DNA from: Acidimicrobiales bacterium
GTDB lineage: Bacteria > Actinomycetota > Acidimicrobiia > Acidimicrobiales > Palsa-688
Assembly: GCA_036378675.1 (NCBI GenBank)
Contig: DASUWA010000017.1
Span: 1-64,000, forward strand
DNA: 64,000 bases
Reading direction: 5' to 3'
Positions 5,300-50,996 of the stretch are shown here, one piece after another (the stretch's first letter is position 1; every line of letters begins with the position of its first letter). A program made the position numbers and the translations under genes. The notes below the pieces were generated by a model, which was given only the letters and a program-made list of their open reading frames with translations, had not been told where the DNA came from and did not search any database.

Positions 5300-6823
5300 G
5301 TGGCGAACTGGCTTATGCGCACCAGCTTTCGTGCTCGGCTAGGAGTTCTGGTTGCCGCGGCCGTGGGAATCAGTCTCGCGCTCGCCGCCGTCGCCTCCTA
5401 CGTGGCTGTACGCCACCAATTGCTCGGCCAGGTCGACTCGACGTTGCAGACCGACGTGCAGAGCGCGACACAGCTGTCACCAGGCGGAGCATTCAATCCA
5501 ACCCGATACGGGTCCTTCCTCAGGCGGACGAACAACAGTTTCATTCAGGTCATTCAGCCTGACGGCACCGTGTGGTACTCGTCGATCAACCCCGCGATGC
5601 AGGTTGATCAGTCGCAGGCTTCCTTGGCTCAGTCGAATCACGGCTACGGCTTCCGGAGTGTTCTATACGACGGTTCGACCTACCGCGTCATAACCGAGGG
5701 TGGTTTCGTCGCTCCCGACGGAACGCCGCTCGCGCTTCAGATCGCCCGGCCCCTCTCCGACATCCAGCACTCCCTCGCCGACCTTCGCCGGATTCTGTGG
5801 CTGGTCGCCATCGCCGGCGTGGCAGTCGCTGTGGGCCTCGGATACCTCATCGGGAGGGCAACCATCCGTCCAGTCGAGAGACTGACCGCGGCAGCCGAAC
5901 ATGTTGCTGCAACCCAGCTGCTTGACGCGGAGATCGAAGAGAAGAGCGAGGACGAGCTGGGACGGCTGGCAAAGGCCTTCAACTCGATGCTGCGCGCGCT
6001 GGCAGCGTCGAGAAGTCAGCAGACACAGCTGATATCCGACGCCGGGCACGAACTTCGTACCCCGCTCACCAGCCTTCGCACAAACATCGAGGTCCTTCTG
6101 CGTGTGCCGGACCTGCCCGCCGGCGACCGCGCCGAACTGATGGCCGACATCGAAGCGCAGCTGGAAGAGCTCACCACCCTCGTGGGAGATGTCGTCGATC
6201 TCGCGAGGGAAGAGGAGCAGAAGGGGGAGCCCATCGAGGTTCGGTTCGACAGCATCGTGGAACGAGCGGTCGAGCGGGCGCGCCGGCGGGCACCTGGCGT
6301 TGATTTCGACGTGCACCTCACACCCGGTTCGGTGCGAGCTCACCCGGCCCTGCTCGAGCGTGCCGTCCTGAACGTGCTCGACAACGCCGTCAAGTGGAGC
6401 CCTCCTGGAGGCCGAGTCGGAGTGTGGCTCCAGCGAGGCGCGTACTGGACTCTCGATATCAGTGACCAAGGCCCCGGGATCAGCCCCAACGACCTGCCGA
6501 AGGTCTTTGACCGGTTCTACCGCGCCCAGACTGCCCGTGCGCTTCCCGGATCGGGTTTGGGCCTGGCCATCGTCAAGCAGGTCGTCGTCGCTCACGGCGG
6601 CCAAGTCACCGCGTCATCCCCGCCCGAAGGCGGCACGGTAATTCACATCGAGTTACCGTCGGTCGCGGAACAGGAGCTCGAGGGCCCGGACGCCCCCGAC
6701 ACCAGCCCGAGCTTCAGCTGGCCCGGACCGCTACATGAGGCGCCGTTGCTTTCGAACGATCCCGAACCAGATAACGGCATTCCGAGTCGAGCCGACACGG
6801 CGAAATCAGAGAGCCGCCCGTAA
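5300..6823 (+). CDS. Membrane sensor histidine kinase (MprB-like)
   Basis: 507 residues. Two transmembrane segments (about 13-35 and 165-187) bound an extracytoplasmic sensor region, followed by HAMP (about 188-240), a dimerisation domain with phospho-acceptor His250 in GHELRTPL, and an HATPase domain with N box VLNVLDNAVKWS, G1 DQGPGI and G2 GSGLGLAI. GGGGAGG at 5287-5293 is a strong ribosome site for the GTG start. About 55 polar, acidic residues follow the kinase core. It should phosphorylate the regulator encoded immediately upstream. The signal it senses is unknown; similarity to MprB suggests envelope stress (inference). Confidence 0.92.
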   Translation: MANWLMRTSFRARLGVLVAAAVGISLALAAVASYVAVRHQLLGQVDSTLQTDVQSATQLSPGGAFNPTRYGSFLRRTNNSFIQVIQPDGTVWYSSINPAMQVDQSQASLAQSNHGYGFRSVLYDGSTYRVITEGGFVAPDGTPLALQIARPLSDIQHSLADLRRILWLVAIAGVAVAVGLGYLIGRATIRPVERLTAAAEHVAATQLLDAEIEEKSEDELGRLAKAFNSMLRALAASRSQQTQLISDAGHELRTPLTSLRTNIEVLLRVPDLPAGDRAELMADIEAQLEELTTLVGDVVDLAREEEQKGEPIEVRFDSIVERAVERARRRAPGVDFDVHLTPGSVRAHPALLERAVLNVLDNAVKWSPPGGRVGVWLQRGAYWTLDISDQGPGISPNDLPKVFDRFYRAQTARALPGSGLGLAIVKQVVVAHGGQVTASSPPEGGTVIHIELPSVAEQELEGPDAPDTSPSFSWPGPLHEAPLLSNDPEPDNGIPSRADTAKSESRP

Positions 6824-6838
6824 CCCGGTTACACGCAT

Positions 6839-6862
6839 AAAGCGTCGTCAGCCCGACGCTTT
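6839..6862. terminator. Bidirectional hairpin terminator between convergent genes
   Basis: AAAGCGTCG (6839-6847), loop TCAGCC, CGACGCTTT (6854-6862): a perfect 9-bp stem flanked by A and T runs that reads as a terminator on both strands. It lies 15 nt after the kinase stop. The stop codon of the minus-strand coiled-coil gene (6848-6850) sits in the loop. Confidence 0.75.
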
Positions 6863-7591
6863 GGTCTCGTCGTCCAAACTCTTCTGGGCCGCCCTGAGAC
6901 GCTTCTCTGCTTCTTTCACATCGCTGCGCAGGCGGGCCGCGGTTTCCTCGGCATCTCGAGCCGCGGCGCGTGCCACTTGAAGGCGCTGTTCGGCTTGGTC
7001 GACCTCTCTGCGCAACTGGCCTAGCCGAATCTCTCGATCGTCATTGCGCGAATCGTCCTCGTCTCGAGAGACCCGTGACCGCGAGAAGGCGCCGGCAGGG
7101 ATGGCTTCGAGGCCGAAGCCGGGTGCAGCCATGTCCGTCTGGAGGTTGCCCTTCCGCAGCCGCTCGGCCACCGAGCTATCGACGGTCGCCGCCCGAAGTG
7201 TCTCACTCATACGGTGGCGAGCGCTTTCAGGAACCGGGTTGCCGCCGGCTTCCAGCAGCGCAACGGCGGCGCCGACCACGTCCTCGATCGCACGCCGCTC
7301 CTGGGCTTGCGCAGCCGGCAGCCCCGAGCGGTCCCCGCCCATCGTGGTCTCGATGGCAGCCCGGAGTCGTTCGCCGGCGTCGATCAGTGCATCGATCAAC
7401 GCCGGCCGTTCGCGAGCCACTTGGTTGACCGCCCATGCGGTTGGCGACGGCCGCTTGAGCGCCTGTACCCCGGCCGCCTGCTCGGTCAGGCCCTCGGACT
7501 TCAGTCGCTTCGCCAGGGCGTTCCGGGCGGCGGTGAACTCCTCGGGTCGCAATCCGAACAGGTCATCGGCTTCTTGTGGCTGGCCAGTCAT
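6848..7591 (-). CDS. Hypothetical protein with C-terminal coiled coil
   Basis: 247 residues. The N-terminal part (about 10-65) has the pattern EEFTAARNALAKRLKSEG then ALKRPSPTAWAVNQVARERP, which I associate with a conserved actinobacterial family of unknown function. The C-terminal third (about 180-245) is a charged heptad coiled coil (RREVDQAEQRLQVARAAARD). No signal peptide or membrane segment. It is monocistronic, convergent with the histidine kinase and sharing a hairpin terminator with it. Role unknown. Confidence 0.7.
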   Translation of the reverse strand: MTGQPQEADDLFGLRPEEFTAARNALAKRLKSEGLTEQAAGVQALKRPSPTAWAVNQVARERPALIDALIDAGERLRAAIETTMGGDRSGLPAAQAQERRAIEDVVGAAVALLEAGGNPVPESARHRMSETLRAATVDSSVAERLRKGNLQTDMAAPGFGLEAIPAGAFSRSRVSRDEDDSRNDDREIRLGQLRREVDQAEQRLQVARAAARDAEETAARLRSDVKEAEKRLRAAQKSLDDETKASG

Positions 7592-46818: not shown

Positions 46819-47607
46819 CTAGGCGGTGGCGATGTTGGTGCGCATGTGGCCGGTCGCAAGGGCAAACAGCTCCTTGGCGTGGCGGCGGCCGTAGAGGAAG
46901 GAGAACGTCAGCCCGGTCCCGGTCCACATCCACCCGGACATCTGGTGCAGCAGCAGGAACCAGCGAATGTTCTGGGTGAGCAGCAGCACAGCCGAGGTGC
47001 TCGCCGATCCGAGGTAGACGATGCCCCAAACGCAGGAGAGGTGCCGGACGAGCCGCTGATGCTTCTCGTGGGTGAGGTGGTCGCCGAGAGAGGGCACGAA
47101 GTCGCGTGCCAGGCTGACCAGGAGCGGCCGGCCCATGAGGAACGTCACGACGAAGAGCGCTCCCATCCCGATGGTCTCGGCAATGGGAACCGCGAAGTAG
47201 GTGAAGGTCGACTGATGGACCACCCAGGTGACGCAGCGGACTGTGAGAGTGAAGGCGGTGATCATGAGCAGGCCGGACATCCGCCTGCTGGTGAGGAGCT
47301 GCCTGCCGAGCATCAGGTAGGCCCACGCGAGGGAGGCAATGATGCCCGCCTTCATACCTGCGGCCGCCGATATCGAATAGAAGAGGAACAGCGGGATGAT
47401 CGTCGCGACGAGCAGGGCCGGGAGCGCTCCCGCCACGAGCCGGAGCACCTTCCGAGGAGTCACAGATAGGTTCTTCCCGCGCGCGGCCATTTCTCCTTCA
47501 AGAAAATCGACATTGGCTAGAAGATCCGCCTCTCTGTCGTCGGTGCGTGTGAACCCGGCATCAGCGGAGTCGGGTCCGCCCCGGACGTCAGAGAGCGTAG
47601 TGGGCAT
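46819..47607 (-). CDS. VC0807-like integral membrane protein
   Basis: 262 residues. An acidic, polar N-terminus (1-50) is followed by about six helices (55-75, 78-97, 105-125, 137-160, 188-210, 215-240). The arrangement resembles VC0807-type membrane proteins, which have no established function. It is convergent with the hydrolase gene and stands alone. Confidence 0.65.
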   Translation of the reverse strand: MPTTLSDVRGGPDSADAGFTRTDDREADLLANVDFLEGEMAARGKNLSVTPRKVLRLVAGALPALLVATIIPLFLFYSISAAAGMKAGIIASLAWAYLMLGRQLLTSRRMSGLLMITAFTLTVRCVTWVVHQSTFTYFAVPIAETIGMGALFVVTFLMGRPLLVSLARDFVPSLGDHLTHEKHQRLVRHLSCVWGIVYLGSASTSAVLLLTQNIRWFLLLHQMSGWMWTGTGLTFSFLYGRRHAKELFALATGHMRTNIATA

Positions 47608-47729: not shown

Positions 47730-48446
47730 CTATTTGTGCGGATCGACCACCATCCACTGCCCCGCCTCGCGGGCCTCGATCTGGCCGCTGATCTCGCCGG
47801 CTGCGGCGTGGGATCCATGGACGTCACTGTCGTACAACAGACGGTTCAGATAGACCCGGGCGGGAGTCTTGGTGGGCCTGCCGTTTCCGGCCAGGCGTTT
47901 GGCGACGATTGGAACCGCGATGAGGGCACCGGCGGTCGCGCCGGATCTGCCGCGGGTGCGATACAGGGCGGGAGGCAGGCATGCGACGGCGGCGAAGCTC
48001 GACAAACCGGTCTCCCCCACCAGCCGCCCGACGCCTAGACCGGCCCCGATGAGAGCCGAACCCTCGGGCGCGATGGCGAGCAGGGCTCCCATTGCCACGG
48101 AGAGACCCCGCCCGCCGGAGAAGCGCAGGAACGGCGACCAGTTGTGACCGGTGACGGCCGCCCCCGCGCCGGCGGCGCGCAGCACCGGCCGGGTCTTTCC
48201 GGCCAGGACCGGGGCGGCGGCTCCTTTGGCGAGCTCCAGGCAACCCGCAACGGCGAGAGGGGCAAAGCCCGCCACCTTGTAGAGCCCCGTACCGGAGACG
48301 GTGCCGTTGCCCACGTCTCGAAGGTCCACGCCACGAAGCGCCTTGCTTGCGAGGTTGGCGACGGGAACCGATCCGAGCAGGTAGGAGAGCACGAGGACCC
48401 GCCACGACGAACGGGCGCACCGTGTCACCGAGACGCTGAGCCCCAT
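47730..48446 (-). CDS. PlsY-like glycerol-3-phosphate acyltransferase
   Basis: 238 residues from the ATG at 48446, about five helices. PlsY motifs are recognisable but altered: GSVPVANLASKALRGVDLRDVGNGTVSGTG (motif 1), GHNWSPFLRFSGGRGLSV (motif 2, with GGRG for the usual GGKG), and RLAGNGRP (motif 3). True PlsY moves acyl from acyl-phosphate to glycerol 3-phosphate. The tail (about 205-238) is hydrophilic and extra. It overlaps the upstream membrane hydrolase by 22 nt. Family likely; the altered motifs leave activity open. Confidence 0.72.
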   Translation of the reverse strand: MGLSVSVTRCARSSWRVLVLSYLLGSVPVANLASKALRGVDLRDVGNGTVSGTGLYKVAGFAPLAVAGCLELAKGAAAPVLAGKTRPVLRAAGAGAAVTGHNWSPFLRFSGGRGLSVAMGALLAIAPEGSALIGAGLGVGRLVGETGLSSFAAVACLPPALYRTRGRSGATAGALIAVPIVAKRLAGNGRPTKTPARVYLNRLLYDSDVHGSHAAAGEISGQIEAREAGQWMVVDPHK

Positions 48447-50149
48447 ATGACACCCGCCAGATCTGCGTCGACCGTCGCGCACTGGTTGCGCGGGGGTCCG
48501 GTGACCGTGCGAGCGAAGTACGAGTCGGGAAGGGTGGGCACCTGCCAAGAAGATGCCGCCCAGCTGACCGCCGATGCAAGCGTGCTCATCAGGTGATCGC
48601 CCGCGACCGGCAGGTGGGCGAGCAGGCGGCCGACGGTTCGGTCCAGGGACGCCCGCTGGAGCATGCCGCCGTGGAAGAACGGCACCACGATCGTGCGGAA
48701 GGACGGGCGGAGGTGCGGGGGCACCCCGACCGCATCGGCCAGGGACAGCAGCCCGACCTGCCTCACTCCGGGCACCGGGCAGGAGTCCAGCCGGCGGACG
48801 AGCGGCCCGTCGGCGACGATCGAACGAAGGAAATGGTTCTGAGGGGAAAGGTCGATCGGCGCCGACGACTGGAAGGCATTCCCGAGCGCGGCCATTCCCC
48901 ACTCGCCGGCTTGACCCCAGCCGTCGGACCCGCCGGCGGGGTAGGAGACGGCGACCGACGACAGAAGCGGGCTGAGCAGGATCGCCGTCGAAACAGGTGC
49001 CAGAGGCGTCGAGTGCAGGTACGCCTCGGCGAGGATCGCGCCCTCGCTTTCGGCGACCAGGCTGACCGGCCGCCGATCGGTTTGAGCCACCGAAGCGACC
49101 TGTGAGGCGAGAAGCCGGACAAGGGTCTTCAACGGCTTCACCGTGTCTTTGCTGGTGTAGGGCAACGCCTGCCCGGCCGGTGAGACTCCGCGGTAGGAGA
49201 AGTGCGTCTCGCTCCAGGCACCGGGAACCGGATGGTCTTTGACGCCGGTCCAGTTCGAGCCGTACCCGTCGACGATGAGCACCGGTGGACCCGCGTCGAA
49301 GGCGATTGCATGGGCTTCCTGCAACCTGGTCGACTGCACCTCGGTCTGTCGCGCCTGGGTGAACCCGACGAGCGTCCCTGCGACCACACCCCCAACCAGC
49401 CCGGCCAGAGCCACCGGCACCACCGGCCGGATCCGGTCGGCGTGAGCGGGCAGGACGACGGCTCGGACGGTGCCGTGCCAAGCCCATGCGTTGAACAACC
49501 CGCCGAGCGCAGCGATCCCCAACGCCGCTTCCGGCACCGAGGACATAGCCGAGATCAGGACTCCGGCGACCGTCGCCACGAGAAAGCTGAGGAGCGCCCA
49601 CCCGACAGCACGAATCGGAAGGGCCCTTCGCCACCACCCGGTTCTTACCGCGACCGGCTGCACGATCATGGAGACGAAGACTGCGGCCGGGACGGCGGCG
49701 ATAAAGAGCCATGAGACCGGGACGACCGCGGATGCGAACAGCACGGCCACGCTCGGCCAGAGAAATACCGACAGGAGGGCCGATGCACCAGCCCCCCGGC
49801 CCCACAAACGCAGCCAGGACGGGAGAGCCGGGACATGTGTGTCGCCTGACCTCGGGTCGCCTGCGGATGGCCAGGCCCACCGAACGCAAGCGGCCATCAG
49901 CAAGGCCCTCAAGCCGAGTACGCCGGCTATCTCCGCCGGGGACCACCACGAGTTGCTGTAGACGCTCAGCCAGCGAAGGTCATGGAACACCCCGAACGGG
50001 CCGATCGAACTCGCTTGTGGGGCGAGGCTGAGATCGGCGCTCGGCGCAAGTGCCAGGACGAGAACAGCTTCGAGGAGGTTGGCTCCGACGCAAACCGTGA
50101 GCAGCCGCCATTTGCGAAGCACCGACGGCGCTGCGTCAGGAGTTTCCAC
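48425..50149 (-). CDS. Multi-pass membrane protein fused to alpha/beta-hydrolase-like domain
   Basis: 574 residues, not recognised as a known family. The N-terminal half (about 1-270) has seven or eight hydrophobic helices. The C-terminal half (about 285-540) looks like an alpha/beta hydrolase: VLIVDGYGSNWTG, a nucleophile-elbow-like VAESEGAILAEAYL with a candidate Ser, and late VPFFHGG and VAGDHLMS with candidate His. The elbow is A-E-S-E-G, not the textbook G-X-S-X-G. It overlaps the DegV gene by 14 nt and the PlsY-like gene by 22 nt, giving a three-gene lipid-type operon. A membrane-bound lipase or acyltransferase is the best guess. Confidence 0.6.
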   Translation of the reverse strand: METPDAAPSVLRKWRLLTVCVGANLLEAVLVLALAPSADLSLAPQASSIGPFGVFHDLRWLSVYSNSWWSPAEIAGVLGLRALLMAACVRWAWPSAGDPRSGDTHVPALPSWLRLWGRGAGASALLSVFLWPSVAVLFASAVVPVSWLFIAAVPAAVFVSMIVQPVAVRTGWWRRALPIRAVGWALLSFLVATVAGVLISAMSSVPEAALGIAALGGLFNAWAWHGTVRAVVLPAHADRIRPVVPVALAGLVGGVVAGTLVGFTQARQTEVQSTRLQEAHAIAFDAGPPVLIVDGYGSNWTGVKDHPVPGAWSETHFSYRGVSPAGQALPYTSKDTVKPLKTLVRLLASQVASVAQTDRRPVSLVAESEGAILAEAYLHSTPLAPVSTAILLSPLLSSVAVSYPAGGSDGWGQAGEWGMAALGNAFQSSAPIDLSPQNHFLRSIVADGPLVRRLDSCPVPGVRQVGLLSLADAVGVPPHLRPSFRTIVVPFFHGGMLQRASLDRTVGRLLAHLPVAGDHLMSTLASAVSWAASSWQVPTLPDSYFARTVTGPPRNQCATVDADLAGVIWGSASR

Positions 50150-50996
50150 CGTCCAAGAGCTTCCCCGATTCCGGCTCCCACCACCACGCCAAACCGTCGA
50201 TGTCGTTGCCCGTGTGGGCGACCATTGCCGGCCCGAAACGACTGATCATCGAGGTAGCCGGCGTCGCCACATCTGTGACCGCTCGAAGGATCTCTTCCGC
50301 GCGGGCGCGGTCACCACCGTGCATCGCCACCAGGTGAAGCTTGTGATCGGGAACCGCCGACCGGCGCCAGGTTTCCATCATCAGTGACAGGGCACCGCCC
50401 TTCGACAGGCCCGGCCTCAACAACCTGATCGAACCGTTGCGGAGCTCGAAGACCGGACGGACCCCGACACTGTTGCCGAGCGACGCGAGGCGCCGGGGCA
50501 GGCGACCGCTTCGCGCAAGTTGGGTCAGGTCCCCGACCTCGGAGACGAGCCTGACCCTCCGGCTCACCTCTCCTGCATGTTTGGCCAGAGCATCGATACC
50601 GAGTCCGGTTCTCGCCGCAGCCGCGGTCGAGAGCACCACCAAGGCCTGGGCTCCGGCGGCGGCTTGGGTATCAACGACCTCGACCATTTTTTCCGTCTGG
50701 GAAGCTGCCAGCCGCGCGGCGTCGGCGGAACTCGAGAAGCGGCTGCCCACGGTGAGGATGACCACCCCCTCCCCGTCATCGGCATCCTCGATCGCCTTCA
50801 TGAACGACCCGGGCGGGGGGCTTGCCGTTCGGGCTCTGCCGGAGCTGAGCAGGTCGGACATCTCCGACTCGGTCAGGGCGGTCTCTTCGACCGAACCACC
50901 TTCCGCCTCCAACAGGAGCGGCACCAGGTGAATGTGCTCGGCATCAACGATGCCGGGTTCGAGGGCCGACGCGCTGTCGGTGACGATCCCGACCAT
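50136..50996 (-). CDS. DegV-family fatty-acid-binding protein
   Basis: 286 residues. DegV/FakB signature: IVTDSASALE at the start, TASPPPGSFMKAIE (the family T-S-x-P-S-P-G-E-F loop), VLTVGSRFSSSADAA and VRPVFELRNG. FakB-type proteins carry a fatty acid to FakA kinase, which makes the acyl-phosphate substrate of PlsY. It is the first gene of a DegV - membrane hydrolase - PlsY-like operon, which fits that logic. No FakA kinase is in the window. Confidence 0.85.
   Translation of the reverse strand: MVGIVTDSASALEPGIVDAEHIHLVPLLLEAEGGSVEETALTESEMSDLLSSGRARTASPPPGSFMKAIEDADDGEGVVILTVGSRFSSSADAARLAASQTEKMVEVVDTQAAAGAQALVVLSTAAAARTGLGIDALAKHAGEVSRRVRLVSEVGDLTQLARSGRLPRRLASLGNSVGVRPVFELRNGSIRLLRPGLSKGGALSLMMETWRRSAVPDHKLHLVAMHGGDRARAEEILRAVTDVATPATSMISRFGPAMVAHTGNDIDGLAWWWEPESGKLLDGGNS

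Follow-up and report, generated by a model that had tools for sequence, protein, structure and literature searches.

The window analysed here is a stretch of 64,000 nucleotides (nt) from an Acidimicrobiales bacterium (assembly GCA_036378675.1, contig DASUWA010000017.1). Three of its genes encode a DegV/FakB-like fatty-acid carrier, a seven-helix membrane protein joined to a C-terminal alpha/beta-hydrolase-like domain, here called MH, and a PlsY-like acyltransferase, here called PlsY3. We found that MH is a genuine conserved family without a name and that its partnership with PlsY3 is real, with PlsY3 present in 29/33 genomes that carry MH and in 6/108 genomes that do not. PlsY3 keeps the acyl-phosphate residues of PlsY, and its acceptor site is rewritten. 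Our preferred reading, held tentatively and at rather less than even confidence, is that the three-gene unit is an envelope acyl-recycling module, and the MH-FakB-PlsY3 cluster may point to an undescribed route of envelope fatty-acyl recycling. No such module was mentioned in the titles or abstract openings that we consulted in the literature on FakB, DegV, PlsY, acyl phosphate and Acidimicrobi/Actinobacteria.

A conserved membrane hydrolase-like family

The initial annotation recognised no family for the MH fusion, and this was correct for both Pfam, in which no family scored above its cut-off and the sole listed match was Hydrolase_4 (E=0.16), and NCBIfam, in which none was matched. PDB sequence searches with MH or an MH profile gave nothing significant. 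MH was found in 16 of the 61 genomes searched, the source genome counted in, and a single-protein scan of genome contigs gave one locus. Profile searches found it in at least 28 of 395 genomes of the class and at least 22 of 396 genomes of the phylum (E<=0.001, weak matches counted); the alignment searches of class and phylum were limited to three scored candidates for each genome, so these counts are lower bounds. Strong matches beyond the 61-genome set came from 14 class genomes and 3 phylum genomes, and no relative was confirmed in the viral contigs scanned with the MH alignment. This alignment comprises 36 loci from 32 genomes (three loci in G024, two each in G624 and G491) and omits L110, which shares a contig with L037, and the fragmented MH genome G134. 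In L037, from a metagenome-assembled genome, the MH gene (5992-7586) is split over two frames.

The serine and histidine first put forward as catalytic candidates proved conserved, Ser368 in 35/35 aligned loci (1 gap) and His493 in 34/34 (2 gaps). The putative acid is Asp at position 472 in 25/34 aligned loci and only at 471 in 7/34, together 32/34, and the candidate triad follows the Ser-Asp-His order of alpha/beta-hydrolases. In a low-confidence full-length model, each of the three putative catalytic residues lies at or just beyond the end of a predicted strand, for example 362-367 before Ser368 and 488-492 before His493; a low-confidence model of the domain predicts no strand before the histidine. 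Asp-Leu-Arg-Trp at residues 57-60, in the first outer loop, is present in 35/35 loci, gaps excluded. Two cysteines of the hydrolase domain, C457 (31/34) and C557 (28/28; the other 8 loci are gapped), are consistent with export of this domain.

The mean hydropathy of 17 homologues resolves helices at 16-34, 74-92, 125-143, 145-163, 181-199, 210-228 and 243-261. Seven or eight had been expected; the seven hold, and the eighth is a weak peak at 378-396 that falls within the hydrolase domain. In the same homologues, whose start codons are uncertain, the mean number of Lys plus Arg residues is 4.9 in the N-terminus and 3.4, 3.1 and 3.1 in loops 2, 4 and 6, against 1.6, 0.0 and 0.5 in loops 1, 3 and 5. 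Because this bias favours the N-terminus and the even-numbered loops, the N-terminus is predicted to lie inside and the C-terminal hydrolase domain outside the cytoplasm. MH had been suggested to release or transfer acyl groups that feed DegV and PlsY, but a domain predicted to face outward makes direct hand-over to a cytosolic FakB or to the cytosolic acceptor side of PlsY improbable.

The MH hydrolase domain aligns with a secreted family that combines M23 and PGAP1-like hydrolase domains (hhalign 98.2%), and weak matches to Hydrolase_4 and Lipase_2 were obtained for 9/18 and 6/18 members, respectively. Secreted-looking proteins that join an M23 peptidase to a PGAP1-like hydrolase occur in a common neighbourhood in four genomes (L113-L116, e.g. 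L114:6242-7903; one member Pfam-checked). Paralogues of MH with an H-S-Q-G or H-S-H-G elbow have the same architecture (hhalign 99.2%, 455 columns), and at least four strong members of this group occur in the 395 class genomes. Two of these four, both of the H-S-Q-G type (L111:5714-7225 and L117:6895-8472), lie directly after the gene for apolipoprotein N-acyltransferase (Lnt), which in L111 is fused to an MFS_3 domain; the third (G042) does not follow Lnt, and for the fourth (G333) the gene finder used gave no readable neighbourhood. We also considered Abhydrolase_9 (PF10081), a membrane plus alpha/beta-hydrolase family of broadly similar architecture. This identity was rejected, with no Pfam match to Abhydrolase_9 in 18 MH members and an hhalign value of 0.2% against the sole family member in the relatives, a weak test based on one sequence.

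Association of MH with PlsY3 and a FakB-like carrier

Genomes were scored as carrying PlsY3 at E<1e-40 for a single query and E<1e-60 for a profile. PlsY3 was present in 15/16 MH genomes against 4/45 others in the first set, and in 14/17 MH genomes of the further set against 2/63 MH-less controls, which were taken at roughly even steps through the class-sample genomes outside the MH match list. The association is significant when pooled (Fisher p=5e-20) and by family (10/12 against 4/46, p=1.1e-6), with relatedness ignored and family counts tallied by hand. The MH genomes without PlsY3 are G009 (68% complete), G243, G486 and G624.

Co-occurrence of MH and PlsY3 is stronger than their adjacency. 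A PlsY-like gene lies less than 4 kb from MH at 8/36 MH loci, spread over six families, two classes and several gene orders; with chance adjacency assumed at 0.0024, the binomial probability is 3e-14 (loci treated as independent). The eight are the window and G008 from the same family, G058, G051, G281, G095 and G152, and G491 from another class of the phylum. DegV is also present at six of them. The order is DegV-MH-PlsY3 in the window, PlsY3-DegV followed by MH at three loci (with an intervening gene in two), MH-PlsY3-DegV at two, MH-PlsY3 at a contig edge in G008, and MFS (major facilitator superfamily)-MH-PlsY-like in G491. Seven of the eight carry PlsY3; G491 has a different divergent PlsY-like gene here, and its PlsY3 adjoins a DegV gene on a separate contig. 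The three-gene neighbourhood on which the initial annotation made its case depend is kept in part in relatives. Its proposal of a lipid-type unit is partly supported, by this recurrent association and by the co-occurrence of MH and PlsY3 even where they lie apart.

DegV accompanies PlsY3 at 21/22 first-set PlsY3 loci, the exception (L020) ending at a contig edge, and within the examined stretch at 15/16 strong second-set loci, three of which repeat first-set loci. The window protein scores well above the Pfam DegV cut-off (151.7 bits against 27) and matches 24 distinct PDB sequences, FakB entries included (best 4x9x, E=9.9e-20). Arg173 of FakB is essential for phosphorylation, and Arg205 takes part in FakA and membrane binding (PMC9136124). 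An Arg equivalent to Arg173 is found in 25/26 DegV rows, the remaining row being a fragment, and the window protein has it too. Genes for Dak2 (FakA-type) and PlsX lie ∼6 kb apart on another contig of the same genome, and the FakB-FakA-PlsY route is established (PMC9136124; PMC12288450).

The coordinates of the features are collected in Table 1. The layout first described, three minus-strand genes with overlaps of 14 nt (DegV/MH) and 22 nt (MH/PlsY-like), agrees with our coordinates. The start of MH is uncertain, and a GTG at 50122, favoured by a simple gene finder, would replace the DegV overlap by a 13-nt gap. The fourth same-strand gene encodes the VC0807-family protein, which scores below the cut-off for DUF3159 (25.9 bits against 34.2). 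A homologue is present at 20/22 PlsY3 loci (absent at L020 and L119), and the unit may therefore extend past 47730-50996 to take in this gene.

Table 1. Positions of the genes and proposed catalytic codons in the window
Feature	Position	Strand	Basis
DegV/FakB-like fatty-acid carrier, 286 amino acids	50136..50996	-	Pfam DegV E=3.3e-44
MH, 7-helix membrane protein with C-terminal alpha/beta-hydrolase-like domain, 574 amino acids, GTG start	48425..50149	-	
PlsY3, PlsY-like acyltransferase with altered acceptor site, 238 amino acids	47730..48446	-	PF02660 E=4.3e-23
VC0807-family / DUF3159-like membrane protein	46819..47607	-	NF041646 77.1 bits, cut-off 65
MH Ser368 codon, proposed nucleophile in A-E-S-E-G	49046..49048	-	conservation
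MH Asp472 codon, proposed acid in L-A-D-A	48734..48736	-	conservation
MH His493 codon, proposed base in F-H-G-G	48671..48673	-	conservation

Most neighbouring genes were grouped by similarity, and one representative per group was given to Pfam. An MFS-like gene stands between PlsY3 and DegV at 9/16 second-set loci, with 4-nt overlaps on both sides in four; four of the nine were Pfam-checked. Other recurrent neighbours at the 22 PlsY3 loci are an LPG_synthase_TM protein (11 loci, each from the family to which the window belongs) and, at 7 loci, a soluble Hydrolase_4 protein. The gene for the latter also follows the other MH copy of G491 at a distance of 43 nt, and lies near MH in G112. An encapsulin (Linocin_M18) gene (L100:7158-7967) adjoins the MH-PlsY3-DegV cluster in G152 and has a homologue in G095 (L099).

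The acceptor site of PlsY3

PlsY3 exceeds the PF02660 cut-off (82.6 bits against 24.1) and falls short of that of the PlsY equivalog TIGR00023 (60.6 bits against 137.2). The references for comparison were Aquifex PlsY (chain 5xj5) with its published active site (PMC5700162) and six canonical PlsY proteins of relatives. Both acyl-phosphate residues persist in PlsY3: position 41 is Thr in 19/22 rows and Ser in 3/22, His92 is found in 22/22, and the window protein has Thr41 and His92. The motif 1 residues Asn37, Pro38, Gly39, Ala40 and Asn42 are replaced in all 22 rows, as is Lys104 by Arg; as aligned, His177 is Arg and the Asn180 column Gly in 22/22. Ser35 is kept in 6/22 rows and Arg45 in 8/22. 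At positions 35, 45, 104, 177 and 180 the window protein has Asn, Lys, Arg, Arg and Gly, as aligned. In the Aquifex enzyme (aaPlsY), the R45K mutation costs over 90% of activity and H177 is called indispensable (PMC5700162). A late R...D.D motif (R202, D206 and D208 in window numbering) is invariant in 21 members, as are the basic residues R113, K183, R184 and R202. Because canonical-type copies too carry Arg in place of Lys104, we do not count this change as a sign that glycerol-3-phosphate (G3P) binding is lost.

Judging from these residues, it is quite possible that PlsY3 does not acylate G3P. A PlsY that is canonical by motif stands alongside it in G118, G134 and G112, and G211 has PlsY3 with a near-canonical PlsY that carries Ser for Asn180; in the source genome, PlsY3 is the only PF02660 gene (E<=0.001). 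No PF02660 match was found in 20 of the 61 genomes, which are drafts, so G3P acylation in some of these lineages probably does not depend on a PlsY. PlsX is carried by 17 of these 20 genomes, pointing to acyl-phosphate probably being made where no PlsY was found. PlsY proper is reported to take both glycerol-phosphate stereoisomers (PMC13400652), which makes a glycerol-1-phosphate-type acceptor possible for PlsY3.

Two further PlsY variants were observed. L242 (G112:C87) combines a canonical-looking motif 1 with a late R-x-x-F-D segment like that of PlsY3, and is perhaps an intermediate. In 12 order-level relatives (L144-L155), a second subtype immediately precedes a DegV gene; in its 12 rows GSGNPG is mostly kept, and His177 and Asn180 are lost.

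Possible functions and comparison with known systems

In the envelope acyl-recycling module that we tentatively propose, the outward domain of MH would cleave acyl chains off an envelope lipid. The freed fatty acid would re-enter the cell, be bound by the DegV/FakB-like carrier and be phosphorylated by FakA to acyl-phosphate, which PlsY3 would spend on re-esterifying an acceptor, probably not simple G3P. The VC0807 protein, or MFS or LPG-synthase-type membrane proteins in other lineages, may carry the deacylated lipid across the membrane.

Several observations weigh against this reading. At 28/36 MH loci the DNA examined showed no PlsY-like gene, several of these loci being on short contigs, and G486 and G624 (one contig, two MH copies) have MH without PlsY3. 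In family f57, MH adjoins MaoC and acyl-CoA dehydrogenase genes instead, i.e. acyl-CoA degradation. The elbow of MH, A-E-S-E-G, departs from G-x-S-x-G, and its hydrolase activity is a prediction; both G624 copies lack Asp at 472 and 471, and AlphaFold models of MH (mean pLDDT, the predicted local distance difference test, of 35.3 and 37.2, from 3- and 2-row alignments) are of too low quality for the fold to be confirmed. The equivalent of FakB Arg205 is Leu in the window DegV and variable among the linked DegV rows. As for PlsY3, Arg45 is retained in some rows, the canonical-type PlsY of these genomes shares Arg for Lys104, and a nearly invariant Asn one residue past position 180 (N188 in window numbering) could stand for Asn180 if the alignment were shifted; some G3P binding is, on sequence grounds, possible.

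A serious competitor, though on the unlikely side, is scavenging, the idea of the initial annotation with the hydrolase moved outside, in which MH would be an outward lipase that frees fatty acids from foreign lipids, FakB and FakA would phosphorylate them, and PlsY3 would be a divergent but working G3P acyltransferase that makes normal phospholipids. The gene set and topology suit it equally, the route from FakB to PlsY is established, and the source genome has no other PF02660 gene. Ser35 and Arg45 persist in some PlsY3 rows, and the invariant basic residues could bind phosphate. On the other hand, mutation of R45 and H177 is severe in aaPlsY, and the window protein carries Lys at the first of these positions and, as aligned, Arg at the second; three genomes hold a canonical-type PlsY beside PlsY3, and the relatives lacking a PF02660 match suggest other ways of acylating G3P. 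The feeding of ordinary phospholipid synthesis is not the simplest reading of a PlsY-like protein with a rewritten acceptor site.

Outward serine-hydrolase folds can act as acyltransferases, as in Ag85 and Chp2. PlsY3 and MH might accordingly be an acyltransferase pair, with PlsY3 acylating a glycolipid or polyol precursor on the cytosolic side and MH, once this product has been flipped, transacylating outside onto another envelope molecule. The rewritten acceptor site would fit this arrangement, as would the H-S-Q-G-type paralogues that follow Lnt at 2/4 strong loci. We consider it unlikely: no glycosyltransferase was found among the annotated recurrent neighbours, most neighbours being without annotation, and transfer and hydrolysis are indistinguishable from sequence.

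A bolder version of the recycling module, and a long shot, would make PlsY3 an acyl-phosphate-dependent acyltransferase of lysophospholipids or other lysolipids and MH its outward phospholipase partner, which with a FakB-type carrier and a lipid-moving protein would form a Lands-type cycle. In the parts of the literature examined, acyl-phosphate as a donor is tied to the synthesis of lysophosphatidic acid and acyl-ACP (acyl carrier protein). That three unrelated genes are neighbours by coincidence or by history alone, as the 28/36 unlinked loci and tests that ignore phylogeny might suggest, is very improbable in view of the linkage rate, the several gene orders in two classes and the by-family co-occurrence.

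If the recycling module is real, acyl-phosphate chemistry would reach past the first step of phospholipid synthesis, and the Acidimicrobiia would gain a testable envelope-remodelling pathway. A membrane hydrolase family without a name is also defined here, and a PlsY-family subtype is flagged for which G3P may not be the acceptor.

With the FakAB-PlsX/PlsY incorporation pathway of Bacillota, the proposed module shares a DegV/FakB carrier, Dak2 and PlsX genes, and a PlsY-family enzyme with the acyl-phosphate residues. It differs in that the carrier gene is paired with a PlsY subtype of rewritten acceptor site, a membrane serine-hydrolase-like family is added, and FakB Arg205 is not kept. MH resembles PGAP1, Lipase_2 and palmitoyl-thioesterase-like hydrolases in its domain, and differs from them by the seven fused helices and the A-E-S-E-G elbow. 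In the LplT-Aas remodelling of E. coli, lysophospholipids are flipped and reacylated, and Lnt is named as a source of them (PMC11416262). The position of MH paralogues after Lnt fits this logic, though it is no proof. The shared logic would be that a deacylated lipid is moved inward and then reacylated, and MFS genes recur with PlsY3 or MH; here the reacylase would be a PlsY-family enzyme driven by acyl-phosphate, not Aas, and the window unit has no such MFS gene. Six of seven MFS genes matched the LplT-Aas fusion model PRK08633 weakly and far below its cut-off (E-values of 2e-4 to 3e-8 for four from PlsY3 operons, 3e-7 for L211 and 5e-14 for L111; no match for L022). TIGR00900 scored better in each, which leaves an LplT role for these genes as a lead only. 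By analogy, the LplT-Aas cycle is the nearest in logic to the module proposed here.

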